Positions 17,449 through 22,094 of a stretch of DNA of 64,000 nt are shown in pieces (the stretch's first letter is position 1; each line of letters starts with the position of its first letter). Source of the DNA: Chthonomonas sp. (GTDB lineage: Bacteria; Armatimonadota; Fimbriimonadia; Fimbriimonadales; Fimbriimonadaceae); NCBI GenBank assembly GCA_016788115.1, contig JAEURR010000009.1, positions 1 to 64,000 on the forward strand, read 5' to 3'. The translations under genes and the position numbers were made by a program. Under the pieces are notes generated by a model, which had not been told where the DNA came from, ran no database searches, and saw nothing but the letters and a program-made list of their open reading frames with translations.

Positions 17449-18639
17449 TCAGCGGCGGGGCGGGCGTGGTGGGGCAGCAGGCGCGCGCTTTGTACCGGGT
17501 AGCACGAGTTTGAAAGCCCGCCAGTACCCATTGAGGACACGGGCAGTGCCCGCAACAATCATGTCTTCGCCATCGCGAATGACACACGTGGCAATCGACT
17601 CTTCCACAGGGACCGGGATGAGCGCGTGGACATCAGTGTACGAAGCCTTGGTCCCTCGCCAAAGAGCGGCGCGCACCAGAAAGCTGGTCGGCGATTCTTC
17701 GGTCGTCATCGAGACCCATCCCGTTTGGAATTCTCCGTCGGTCCAGTTTGCCGAGCTCCAATCGAATCGGTTCGGGTGAAGGTCCGTAAACGTCCAACCC
17801 GGACCGCGCCATAGCACGGCGTGTGGCTGCGCCGAGGCACCGGCCGGGAACCCAGCTCGGCCCACAATCACGCCTCCGCGGATCCCGACCGCTTCGGCAT
17901 AGGCTGCGTTCGCCGGTGTGATGACTTGCAACGTGGAGGTAACGACTTGATCGTCGCTAGGCTGGGGTGAGAGCGTCCAGAAGGTCGCATCAGAGTGTCC
18001 ATCGGCATCGGAAATGCTGCCTACGACAGTCAGACCCTGGACGCCGCGGGCTAGGGCTGACTCCGCGCCATCAGAGTTCAGCCTGCGGAGAATCCCGTCA
18101 GAACCCCACGTCACCGCGCGGGTCGGAAGTGGGATCGCAATGCGATAATCTGGACCGAATTCAAGCCACTCGACAAAGCTGGCTGCCCCCACGATACGCA
18201 TGCCGTCCGTACCGTAGGCCATGCCGCGGTCGTATCCGCCGAGATCAAGATACTGAGTCGAACCGGGGAGGCTGCTCCAGAGCACCGGTCGTTCCAGGCC
18301 GTCATTTGCGTAGAAGTCGCGGATTTCGCCGACCTGCCACATGTCGCTGACGTCGTTGATGCGGCCTCGGTACGCCGGGGAGTTCAACTGGAACAGGGGA
18401 GTGGGGACATCTGAACCGTGCCAGACGGCCGTGAGCTGTTTGGTCCCCTCGAACTCATTGGATGGGTTGCCGCTGATGAAGAACGAGCCAAACATGCGGG
18501 TGGCATTTCCGCCAACGATCGCCGACGAGTACGAAATCTCCGGGCCCATCCATTGGAACGTGACGCTTCGCCCGGCGGCATAGCTCATAACTACCGCCGC
18601 GATCCCAAGGCTGGAAATCGCGGTGCGAAGAACGGACAT
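17449..18639 (-). CDS. Secreted protein of unknown function, HAF-like
   Basis: The 396-residue product has an N-terminal signal ([23 protein letters not shown]) and repeated motifs of the type A-x-G-x-VVG or [13 protein letters not shown] together with AVLWRG, reminiscent of HAF-type extracellular repeats and similar in style to the PEP-CTERM protein at 94-1221. It lacks a PEP-CTERM tail and ends in a Pro/Arg-rich stretch ([12 protein letters not shown]). A CACTAT or TACACT box lies 8-10 nt before the ATG, so the mRNA may be leaderless or nearly so. The role is unknown. Confidence 0.75.
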
Positions 18640-18761: not shown

Positions 18762-18767
18762 TAGAAT
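18762..18767 (+). promoter_or_regulatory. Candidate -10 box for the riboswitch transcript
   Basis: TAGAAT lies 26 nt before the aptamer, which would start the transcript just ahead of the first aptamer helix. No convincing -35 box is present, so the call is weak. Confidence 0.35.
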
Positions 18768-18792
18768 GAAACAGATCGCTCAACCGAGCGGA

Positions 18793-18902
18793 CGTCGAAT
18801 CACACCTTTGGGTGTGAACGGGGGACCCAAAACTCGGGGTGAATGAGCCGAAAGGCTCTAGGGTAACTCTTGGCCCGAACCCGACAGCTAACCTCGTAGA
18901 CG
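18793..18902 (+). ncRNA. Cyclic di-AMP riboswitch aptamer (ydaO-yuaA class)
   Basis: The region matches the ydaO-yuaA consensus at its diagnostic blocks: GAATC after the first helix strand, AACGGGGGACCCA (18828 area), CGGGGTGAAT, TAGGG-TAAC, and the highly conserved 3' block CCGACAGCTAACCTCGTA. The closing helix is intact: CGTC (18793-18796) pairs with GACG (18899-18902). Two internal hairpins, CACACCTTTGGGTGTG and GAGCCGAAAGGCTC, occupy the variable stems. In known examples c-di-AMP binding turns transcription off. The first gene downstream on this strand is the ECF sigma factor at 19190, after an intrinsic terminator at 19085-19121. Confidence 0.9.
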
Positions 18903-19084
18903 AAGCTGGAGTCGGCTGACGGATGGTCTCCATCCATTTCAGAACGAATTCCTTCTTCCACTCGGGACGGCGATCCTGGCAGGCTGTTCTGGCCTTCGCA
19001 AAGTCGCGAAGTAGCACGGGCGCACGATCGCACGCACGATCCAACCGTCCGCGTCAGGTGGCTTACCAAGTGCACCTCCGACTG
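18903..19084 (+). other. Leader between the aptamer and its terminator
   Basis: No convincing gene is seen. A competing hairpin is possible: CCGACAGCT (18881-18889, the aptamer's conserved 3' block) can pair with AGCTG plus TCGG (18904-18908 and 18912-18915), disrupting the aptamer. Further hairpins are GGATGG-TCT-CCATCC (18921-18935) and a CTTCGC/GCGAAG stem near 18993-19010. The stretch could be the expression platform or could encode a small RNA. Confidence 0.4.
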
Positions 19085-19121
19085 GAAGCCCTTGCTCGCC
19101 CGCAGGGGCTTCTCTCTTTTT
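19085..19121 (+). terminator. Intrinsic terminator upstream of the ECF sigma gene
   Basis: GAAGCCCTTGC (19085-19095) pairs with GCAGGGGCTTC (19102-19112) through 11 bp with one G-U pair, followed by TCTCTTTTT. It has all features of an intrinsic terminator and lies between the c-di-AMP aptamer and the sigma factor start, 69 nt before the ATG. Confidence 0.88.
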
Positions 19122-19189
19122 CCCCCTCCCATTGAACGATCTGGTCGCGTCCTTACATACACCTGTCGAAAGACAAACAGCGCGGCCTT

Positions 19190-19693
19190 ATGAAGGTTTT
19201 TGACCGACGAAGAAGCCAGCCCGACATTGATCAGTGGGCCAAGGAGCATTACCAAGCGGTGTGGGCGTTTTGCCGACGCCGTGTGGGCATGGACCTGGCC
19301 TCGGATCTGACCCAAGACACGTTCGTGACTGCTGAGCAAAAGAGATCGAGCTACCGTGAGGACGTCCCGCCCAGAGCCTGGCTCTTCGGGATCGCCCTCA
19401 ACCACTGTCGAAACCGGGCGAGGAACCTTGGCAGGGAAGTCCAGATCGATTGGCTGGCAGACACCCCCGCTCCGAAGGGGGCCGACATGATCGAGAGCGA
19501 GGCGCTCAGGCAAGCCTTGGCGAAGCTGAGCGAAGACCACCGAGCCGTCGTGATCCTGAAGGAAGTCGAAGGTCTCACGTACGATGAGATCGGAAAGGTG
19601 TTGGATGTGCCTAGCGGCACGGTCAAGTCCCGACTACACCACGCGTTTGTCCAATTGCGCAAGGAACTTTGTACTGGATCGGTGGAAGCATGA
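19190..19693 (+). CDS. ECF-type RNA polymerase sigma factor
   Basis: The 167-residue protein has the two ECF domains. Region 2 is around YQAVWAFCRRRVG...DLTQDTFVTA with the core-binding ASDLTQD motif. Region 4 is LSEDHRAVVILKEVEGLTYDEIG and GTVKSRLHHAFVQLR. Length is typical. It is followed with a 4-nt ATGA overlap by its likely anti-sigma factor. The upstream c-di-AMP riboswitch and terminator suggest that transcription of the pair is set by c-di-AMP, probably off when c-di-AMP is high. The Shine-Dalgarno is weak. Confidence 0.95.
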   Translation: MKVFDRRRSQPDIDQWAKEHYQAVWAFCRRRVGMDLASDLTQDTFVTAEQKRSSYREDVPPRAWLFGIALNHCRNRARNLGREVQIDWLADTPAPKGADMIESEALRQALAKLSEDHRAVVILKEVEGLTYDEIGKVLDVPSGTVKSRLHHAFVQLRKELCTGSVEA

Positions 19694-20916
19694 ACGACAT
19701 TCGCGAGAATCTGAAGGCCTATCTCGATGGGGAACTCTCCCCCGAGATGGCCGCGCGGGTGGCGACAGCACTGGAACAGGACGAAGCTCTGCGGCAAGAG
19801 GTGCAAGACATGAGCAGAATCTCGTTTGCGTTTCGACACTATGATCAGGCGGCATCCCAGGCCCCGAACGAACCGGCCAAGAAGCCAGAATCGCGACGGC
19901 CTTGGTGGCGCGTCAAGTGGGCACCGATGGCGGCGGTCGGCGCACTGGTGGTTATCGTCGCCGGCTCGGTCGTGATGAGCAGACCTGAGACTTTCCCCAA
20001 AGTAGCAAGTGCGGCTGGAGCCGCTGCTGCAGTCGACGAGGCCACTGCTGGGGCACCGACGATCACGCCCTCGATGCCGGGAGAGGCTGCTCGTCCCGCT
20101 GCACAAATTCCGGAGTCTGCAGCTAATTCTGAGGCCGGAGAGTATGAAAGCCAAGGCATTTATCCACAGGACAGCCCCGCGGCTCATGCAAAGTCAGAAT
20201 CCAGGGGACGAGAGTCCGTTCCCAACAGCGCTGCGGCCATGGCCTCCAAGCGCGATGTCATCCGACGTGCTGTCCTCGGCCTGCTGGTCAAGTCTGTTCA
20301 AGACTCCCAGACCGCCATCGAGAGCTTGACGACCGGTTGGGGCGGTTTCATTGAGAGCGCCGATCTGAATCGTCAAGTTGAGACCCGCGTGACCGCATCG
20401 ATGGTGTTGCGTATCCCAAGTAATCGCTTCGATGTGGCCATGTCGGCACTCCGGGAGATCGGCGAGGTGCAATCCGAGAACGTCTCAGGTGAGGACGTGA
20501 CCGGACAGCGCGTGGATCTTGAAGCGCGGCTCAAGACCATGAGGGCGGAAGTCGAGAGCCTCAGGCAGATTCTTCGTCAGGCACGTCGGGTGGGCGAAGT
20601 CTTGGAGATTCGTGACCGGATCACGCAAACCCAATCGGAAATCGAGTCTCTCACGGCTCAGTTGGCCGTCCTAAAGGATCAGTCTGCCTACTCCACCGTC
20701 AGCCTGACGCTGACCCAGCGACCGAGCGGGTCAGACGTCACTTTGGACAAAGGCAACTGGTCGGGCGACGCCTTTGCGAGTGCCATGGAGAACATGCGCC
20801 GGTTCGGGCGAGGGCTCGGCGAGTTCCTGATCCACGTGCTGATCTACGCGCCAGTGTGGCTACCGATCGCGCTCATCACGGTGGTGATCCTGCGCCGCAA
20901 CGCCTCCAAATCATGA
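19690..20916 (+). CDS. Anti-sigma-like membrane protein fused to a DUF4349 domain
   Basis: The 408-residue protein appears to have three parts. Residues 1-55 resemble an anti-sigma N-terminal domain (ENLKAYLDGELSPEMAARVATAL), without the His-Cys-Cys zinc ligands. A transmembrane helix follows at about residues 78-98 (AAVGALVVIVAGSVVM). After a low-complexity linker, residues 190-408 match the DUF4349 pattern: a lipoprotein-like beta domain, a coiled coil (LEARLKTMRAEVESLRQILRQA), IRDRITQTQSEIESL, YSTVSLTL and a C-terminal transmembrane helix (PVWLPIALITVVIL). Location is the inner membrane with the DUF4349 part outside the cytoplasm. It probably sequesters the ECF factor and senses an envelope signal; that is inferred from context. 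Confidence 0.85.
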   Translation: MNDIRENLKAYLDGELSPEMAARVATALEQDEALRQEVQDMSRISFAFRHYDQAASQAPNEPAKKPESRRPWWRVKWAPMAAVGALVVIVAGSVVMSRPETFPKVASAAGAAAAVDEATAGAPTITPSMPGEAARPAAQIPESAANSEAGEYESQGIYPQDSPAAHAKSESRGRESVPNSAAAMASKRDVIRRAVLGLLVKSVQDSQTAIESLTTGWGGFIESADLNRQVETRVTASMVLRIPSNRFDVAMSALREIGEVQSENVSGEDVTGQRVDLEARLKTMRAEVESLRQILRQARRVGEVLEIRDRITQTQSEIESLTAQLAVLKDQSAYSTVSLTLTQRPSGSDVTLDKGNWSGDAFASAMENMRRFGRGLGEFLIHVLIYAPVWLPIALITVVILRRNASKS

Positions 20917-20948: not shown

Positions 20949-22094
20949 ATGGGATTGACTTACCACGAGCTCGGACCAGCGGACCGCGCGGAACTCGTGG
21001 ACCTCTGGTCCGAAGTCTATAACCGCGGCCAGCAGTTCGAGGAAGGGCGGCTCAGCCGTGACTTCGAGATGCCCGTAGGGGTCCGGTACGACAACCGGTT
21101 GGTGGCCGCGGCCTCGATCCATTCGTTTGACTTTTCTCGCGGCAGCGCTTCGCTCCACGGGGGTGGAGTGGCGATGGTGGCAGTCCGCCCGGACAGTCGC
21201 GGCATTGGGGCGGGCACCGCCCTCGTCCGCGGCGTGCTCGAATCGCTTCATACCCATGGTTACGACCTCAGCGTCCTGTACGGGTTCCGCGAGCGGTTTT
21301 ATCGTCCATTCGGTTACGAGCTTGCTGGTGACAGCGTGCTCGTCCGGTGCCCGAGCCACCTCTTCCCGAAGATTTCACCGCAGCTGAATGTGCGGCGAAT
21401 CTCGCCCGATGAGCTGCATCTGCTCCAACCGGCGTACGATGGCTTCCGGGCGAACCACGCGGGCATCGCACGGCGCGGTCCAGCCGAGTGGCAGAACCGG
21501 ATGGGGCTGCGCGCACCCATGATCTATGGCGCTGGCGACCCGGTCGAAGCGTATGCGTGGACGAGCATGGAGGGCGGCTTCTTCGACGAGTTCCAGATGG
21601 GTGAATTTGTCTGGAGCACGCGACGCGGCTACGAGACGATCTTGGACTGCATCCGCGGCTTGGCCTTTAACCGGTCTGCAGCGAAGTGGACCGAGCCGAG
21701 CCCGAGTCCCTTCCAGCACCGCTTTGCCGATGAAGGGATCACGTTTACCAATCATCGCGTTGCGATGTGGAGGATCGTGAACTTACCTCAGGCACTGGAG
21801 CGACTGTCCGGGCGCGGCGCAGGCGTGTTCAGTCTCGAGGTCGAAGATCCGAGGTTCCCCCAGGTGCATGGCGCATGGCGGGTCGAGTTTGACGCATCGG
21901 GCACCCACGTCCAACGCGCGAGCGGGGGCACGATCAAACTCAAGGTGGGGACGCTTTCCCAGGCGCTGATGGGGCAACCTTCGGTGACCGCGCTCATGGA
22001 GATGGGCATGATCGAGAGTCGTGACGCCGCGGAGTTCCAGGCCATGCAGAACTTGCTCACTCCGCAGTCGGTTTTCTGCTCTGAATTCTTCTAA
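20949..22094 (+). CDS. Eis-like GNAT acetyltransferase with SCP2-like C-terminal domain
   Basis: The 381-residue protein has an N-terminal GNAT fold with the acetyl-CoA motif [18 protein letters not shown], a second GNAT-like domain, and a C-terminal sterol-carrier-like segment ending in a free carboxylate, FCSEFF. This is the layout of the Eis family, whose C-terminal carboxyl acts as catalytic base and whose members acetylate aminoglycosides or protein lysines. The substrate here cannot be deduced. It lies 32 nt after the anti-sigma gene and may be in the same transcript. Confidence 0.9.

Follow-up and report, generated by a model that had tools for sequence, protein, structure and literature searches.

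A c-di-AMP riboswitch aptamer joined to a conserved anti-Shine-Dalgarno motif beside an ECF sigma factor gene in Chthonomonas sp.: a candidate stand-alone regulatory RNA

Results

The DNA analysed here, referred to as the window, is a stretch of 64,000 nucleotides from Chthonomonas sp. (contig JAEURR010000009.1, positions 1 to 64,000). On its forward strand it carries an ECF sigma factor gene (19190-19693), whose product matches Sigma70_r2 and Sigma70_r4_2, overlapped at its last nucleotide by an anti-sigma factor gene (19693-20916) with zf-HC2 and DUF4349 domains, all of these Pfam matches being above cut-off. A GNAT/SCP2 acetyltransferase gene (20949-22094, forward strand) and then a gene for a 501-aa protein follow the anti-sigma gene. 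An earlier note, made from the sequence of the window by itself, had placed a ydaO-class c-di-AMP aptamer at 18793-18902 and an intrinsic terminator at 19085-19121 in front of this pair, and both elements were borne out. Infernal matched RF00379 to 18783-18916 on the forward strand over the full model (1-134) with 86.8 bits (E 7e-19) against a gathering score of 38 bits, and this is the one RF00379 match in the whole genome. A terminator consensus scan found a hairpin of 12 bp at 19084-19113 and, behind it, the U-rich tail CTCTTTTT, the whole terminator spanning 19084-19121 and having a predicted folding energy of -21.3 kcal/mol. The gap between the two elements, put earlier at about 180 nt, measured 167 nt from the aptamer end to the hairpin, and the domain assignments agree with the sigma and anti-sigma identities proposed for the downstream genes. 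Since the window genome encodes a diadenylate cyclase (DAC, PF02457), as do both congeners, the ligand is probably made. Divergent from the aptamer lies a gene for a 396-aa protein without a Pfam family (17449-18639, reverse strand), separated from the presumed promoter described below by about 120 nt.

Comparison within the family brought out a feature of this leader that the earlier note does not contain. RF00379 matches were present in 74 of 85 genomes of the same family, from which 116 loci were fetched and oriented, making 117 with the window. When three congeneric leaders were read side by side, what they had in common beyond the aptamer was the sequence CACCTCC placed right before the terminator hairpin; in the window, CACCUCC occupies 19073-19079 on the forward strand. 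At 40 of the 117 loci this heptamer was found no more than 300 nt downstream of the aptamer, compared with 15 occurrences in about 900 control windows taken further downstream, an odds ratio of 31 with a p value of about 1e-28 that is only nominal because the loci are related and not independent. We refer to the loci that combine an aptamer, a variable spacer, (C/U)ACCUCC or a close variant of it and an intrinsic terminator as class A (45 of 117, the window included) and to the other 72 as class B. Class A occurs in exactly one copy per genome in all 45 genomes that have it, across 19 genera, even where a genome contains up to five c-di-AMP aptamers.

The heptamer is identical to the anti-Shine-Dalgarno (anti-SD) core at the 3' end of 16S rRNA, which in the window genome reads GGATCACCTCCTTTAAGG (a first search pattern with a fixed TTTNT tail gave nothing, and the end was located with a shorter one). 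It is near-invariant, CCTCC being retained in all but one of the 45 curated loci of the family and seven loci of a sister family. The distance from aptamer to motif varies between about 50 and 190 nt (52-186 nt), and when 18 spacers were aligned (mean identity 56%), nine of the 16 invariant columns came from CCTCCTGTT. All 51 loci checked have a stable hairpin 3' of the motif, in most cases followed by a U-rich tail, and the motif and a strong terminator are present in all three congeners. Exact GCACCTCCTGTTGA sites number 17 in the 85 genomes; 16 of them lie behind an aptamer and the remaining one lies within a coding-like stretch with no terminator behind it. The copy in the window ends in CACCUCCG where CACCUCCU is usual and has lost the usual final U.

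Two further elements of the window, also absent from the earlier note, lie at the 5' side of the aptamer. A hairpin, UCGCUC-AACC-GAGCGG (18776-18791, forward strand), stands at the presumed start of the RNA, as seen in the alignment and the consensus fold of the nine RNAs nearest to the window; its counterpart in most other class A RNAs is GGCUGCAAAGCC, and many class A RNAs begin with a small hairpin of this kind, GGCTGCAAAGCC or TCGCTC-AACC-GAGCGG, a few nucleotides past a -10-like element. In the window that element would be TAGAAT (18762-18767, forward strand), read directly in the sequence at the position where the interval of the earlier note begins; a TAnnnT placed about 10-15 nt upstream of the 5' hairpin was seen repeatedly across class A loci, and the assignment of a promoter to the window RNA is weak. 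As a separate observation, the promoter-like pattern GGAA(C/T)-N14-19-G..TAnnnT, whose -35 part is unlike TTGACA, occurs within 75 nt upstream of 13 of the 45 class A aptamers (for example L111, L112, L127, L128 and L192) but was not seen in any of 176 control windows.

The spacer of the window RNA (18917-19072, forward strand) has no conserved open reading frame. It includes a hairpin, GATCG-CACGCA-CGATC (19026-19041, forward strand), whose CACGCA loop was found again in related RNAs; its alignment to the spacers of the congeners did not rise above the shuffled level, and none of the Rfam families sought in it was found. A small encoded peptide was considered as the function of the class A spacers and rejected, as no frame is conserved and some spacers, at 52-60 nt, leave too little room for one.

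In many class A relatives CCUCC lies in the loop of a predicted hairpin before the terminator (CAGCA-CCUCC-UGUUG; AUACA-CCUCC-UGUAU in L186). Of the five flanking pairs, 73% form, compared with 18-62% for slid versions, but the hairpin is absent from the window group and was not accepted as a universal element. In the predicted fold of the window RNA, CACCUCC is mostly paired, with a mean unpaired probability of 0.22, so that the RNA of the window may deviate from its relatives in some details. The consensus fold of the nine nearest RNAs pairs CCUCC with the GGGGG of the aptamer; this pairing never varies, and in the absence of covariation it was rejected as the reason for the motif. Whereas the motif remains CCUCC, the 3' strand of the aptamer itself takes several forms (CCCCG, CCUCG, CUCCG), which argues against pairing with the aptamer G-run as the sole reason why the motif is kept. 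No consistent antiterminator partner for the 5' arm of the terminator was found across class A. An alternative hairpin that the earlier note had suggested would compete with the aptamer (CCGACAGCT/AGCTGGAGTCGG, 18881-18889 with 18904-18915) is present in the window, but pairing of its outer 5-bp arm is complete in only 15 of the 44 relatives examined, and neither congener is among these 15; the hairpin is therefore not a conserved switch element.

Searches for a trans target with extended complementarity, made with exact 14-mers over 85 family genomes and 291 genomes of the phylum, returned only the RNAs themselves and chance coding hits. An SD-like 5-mer precedes the start codon in 17 of 42 long frames of the window and in 14 in one scrambled control, which makes SD usage in the window uninformative.

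The architecture extends to a sister family, f2, to which eight of 40 further genomes searched belong. All eight have c-di-AMP aptamers, and seven have one aptamer with (C/T)ACCTCCTGAC 152-171 nt further downstream and then a terminator. In all seven of these RNAs an additional hairpin with a run of at least five T lies between the aptamer and the anti-SD motif; no such internal terminator was recognised in the window copy. Aptamers of the more distant families sampled had no such motif downstream, and its matches outside the order were at chance level by comparison with a reversed-pattern control.

INDEPENDENCE from downstream genes was apparent throughout class A, the neighbours of the RNAs being very varied. 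The his operon or his genes lie 3' of about 19 of the 45 class A RNAs, and a SurA-like gene lies 3' of the RNA in five of the seven sister-family loci. Elsewhere the neighbours are genes for DnaK, a GGDEF regulator, a sulfotransferase, an M24 peptidase, prolyl oligopeptidase-like proteins and a BadF-type ATPase, as well as sucD, rpoB-linked genes and the ECF pair. Most downstream genes are co-oriented with the RNA. In several loci the gene next to the RNA is not co-oriented with it: a convergent uracil phosphoribosyltransferase gene is next in L114, L137 and L148, a convergent DUF2231/CcmF pair in L122, and a convergent methyltransferase-like gene in L249. (The functions of the L249 gene and of the SurA-like and prolyl oligopeptidase-like genes were judged from the translated sequence alone.) Judged by sequence, the architecture of the RNA is conserved, single-copy and independent of the genes behind it.

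The same holds for the ECF/anti-sigma pair itself. The earlier note had taken the riboswitch to control the pair and had proposed looking for the same arrangement in related genomes; it was found 3' of two of the 117 aptamers, those of the window and of congener G071 (locus L130), while DUF4349 genes are present in 79 of the 85 family genomes. Flanks of up to 3 kb around the closest ECF relatives beyond this set contained no aptamer. In congener G070 (locus L197) the RNA is present without the ECF pair and stands directly before homologues of the acetyltransferase gene and the 501-aa gene of the window, which indicates that the pair was inserted or lost beside a persisting riboswitch. By this comparison of gene orders the pair is a lineage-specific neighbour of the RNA. 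The earlier interpretation holds for a riboswitch and a terminator upstream of an ECF/anti-sigma pair in a genome with a diadenylate cyclase gene, and it is not supported as to control of that pair; cis control of the ECF gene is possible but unsupported. A separate conserved ECF promoter past the terminator was also considered and rejected, since the block common to the two ECF-bearing congeners was not above the shuffled level. In the sister-family loci L257, L259, L261 and L263 the class A RNA is preceded, at a distance of about 1.3-1.8 kb and on the other strand, by an ECF sigma gene; a link of these genes to the ECF gene of the window is possible but looks coincidental.

Discussion

Our results suggest that the aptamer in the window is the 5' sensor of a discrete c-di-AMP-controlled noncoding RNA that carries an anti-SD module and probably acts in trans on mRNA start sites, a reading to which we assign a probability of about 60%. 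The observations on which it is built are the aptamer, the motif and the terminator, their joint conservation, the single copy in each genome and the independence of neighbouring genes; from them we infer the separate transcript, its promoter, the response to the ligand and the action on SD sequences. The RNA would be about 345 nt long (roughly 18774-19121), with its own promoter and its own terminator, and would consist, in order, of the 5' hairpin, the c-di-AMP aptamer, the variable spacer, the anti-SD module CACCUCC and the terminator. Binding of c-di-AMP would alter either the amount of full-length RNA or the exposure of the CCUCC segment, which in turn could pair in trans with the SD sequences of target mRNAs. 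A number of observations sit less comfortably with such an RNA: the frequent position before his genes, and in the sister family before the SurA-like gene, is what would be expected of a cis regulator; the motif is mostly paired in the predicted fold of the window RNA and differs there at its end from the usual form; and the lack of an extended complementary target, of a recognisable f2-type internal terminator in the window and of a firm promoter also count against it.

One alternative is that of a classical cis attenuator, in which c-di-AMP would cause RNA polymerase to stop at 19084-19121 and so turn the ECF/anti-sigma operon off. The aptamer, terminator and ECF gene are indeed correctly ordered on one strand, the arrangement recurs in congener G071, and ligand-promoted intrinsic termination is the mechanism of the kdp c-di-AMP riboswitch of Bacillus thuringiensis (PMC6488665). 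We nevertheless regard this explanation as unlikely, given how rarely the pair stands behind an aptamer in a family in which DUF4349 is nearly ubiquitous, the presence of the RNA without the ECF gene in congener G070, and the lack of a consistent antiterminator partner across class A. The kdp terminator moreover adjoins its aptamer, whereas that of the window is 167 nt away, and attenuation leaves both the anti-SD motif and the convergent neighbours unexplained. More generally, a riboswitch beside a gene is not in itself evidence that it controls that gene.

Control in cis could also take an unusual form, in which aptamer, spacer, CCUCC and terminator together make up one long expression platform for whatever gene lies downstream and CCUCC competes for the G-run of the aptamer. 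This would fit the GGGGG/CCUCC pairing in the consensus fold, the co-oriented genes in most loci and the his genes found behind the RNA in many genomes. We consider it quite unlikely: the invariance of the pairing deprives it of covariation support, the combination of a fixed motif with a varying aptamer 3' strand suggests that something other than G-run pairing constrains the motif, and several loci offer no co-oriented gene directly downstream on which such a platform could act. That the aptamer and terminator of the window are a decaying, functionless remnant seems very improbable. The usual final U is indeed missing from the window motif, and the window spacer cannot be aligned to those of the congeners above the shuffled level, but the aptamer retains an intact core and a score of 86.8 bits, the motif and strong terminator persist in all three congeners, and a diadenylate cyclase is encoded.

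Several known systems resemble the RNA in part. The kdpFABC leader of B. thuringiensis belongs to the same aptamer family (ydaO/yuaA, RF00379) and likewise continues into an intrinsic terminator; its aptamer ends at +171 and its terminator begins at +172, in front of a conserved operon (PMC6488665), in contrast to the 50-190 nt spacer, the anti-SD module and the changing downstream gene of class A. Similar in organisation are EutX of Enterococcus faecalis and Rli55 of Listeria, small RNAs with a vitamin B12 riboswitch in which B12 stops the RNA before the effector module (PMC7602753). There, too, an aptamer is followed by an effector module within a noncoding RNA, and the sister-family RNAs share the terminator between the two, so that c-di-AMP could stop the f2 RNA ahead of its anti-SD module as B12 does for EutX and Rli55. 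The differences lie in the ligand and in the module, which in EutX and Rli55 binds the protein EutV and in the window RNA is an anti-SD sequence, with no internal terminator recognisable. C-rich loops of staphylococcal small RNAs pair with SD sequences (PMC3861533). RNAIII and the Rsa RNAs of Staphylococcus aureus, and their Listeria relatives, resemble class A, in which CCUCC is often placed in a predicted loop before the terminator, but the reviewed examples use UCCC boxes and have no ligand-binding aptamer, whereas class A RNAs have both an aptamer and CCUCC. The window element is a true member of RF00379 that resembles riboswitch-controlled small RNAs without having all of their defining features.

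Riboswitches that act in trans are rare exceptions (PMC7266159). In the literature covered, which was incomplete, we found no c-di-AMP riboswitch described within a trans-acting RNA and no riboswitch paper naming Fimbriimonas. We put forward only tentatively, and leaning somewhat against it, the wider proposal that class A represents a widespread c-di-AMP-gated RNA, single-copy in two families of the order, that would mimic the anti-SD end of 16S rRNA and tune translation initiation of many mRNAs. Were it correct, c-di-AMP signalling would reach beyond local operons and govern translation initiation directly, in poorly studied bacteria, and the CCUCC module would provide a simple part that can be tested.

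Class B differs from class A in its relation to the genes behind it. An SD sequence with a start codon lies within 110 nt of the aptamer in 57 of the 72 class B loci, compared with 7 of 44 class A loci, which suggests that c-di-AMP riboswitches in this family are of two kinds, ordinary leaders and a self-contained RNA. Many class B riboswitches are followed directly by an SD sequence and a short open reading frame of about 90-130 aa without a Pfam family (clusters c10, c11, c12 and c47), situated +20 to +60 nt past the aptamer in L217 (G070:C127), L219 (G071:C1), L204, L215, L176, L212 and others. From their position these short frames are candidate c-di-AMP-regulated small protein families. 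The riboswitches of L202, L194, L180 and L136 (genus g11), found before an MFS transporter gene (or in g11), have in common the leader block GGAGGAGGAG...GAACCTCC...TTTTGTCACCACTGGGGCC.
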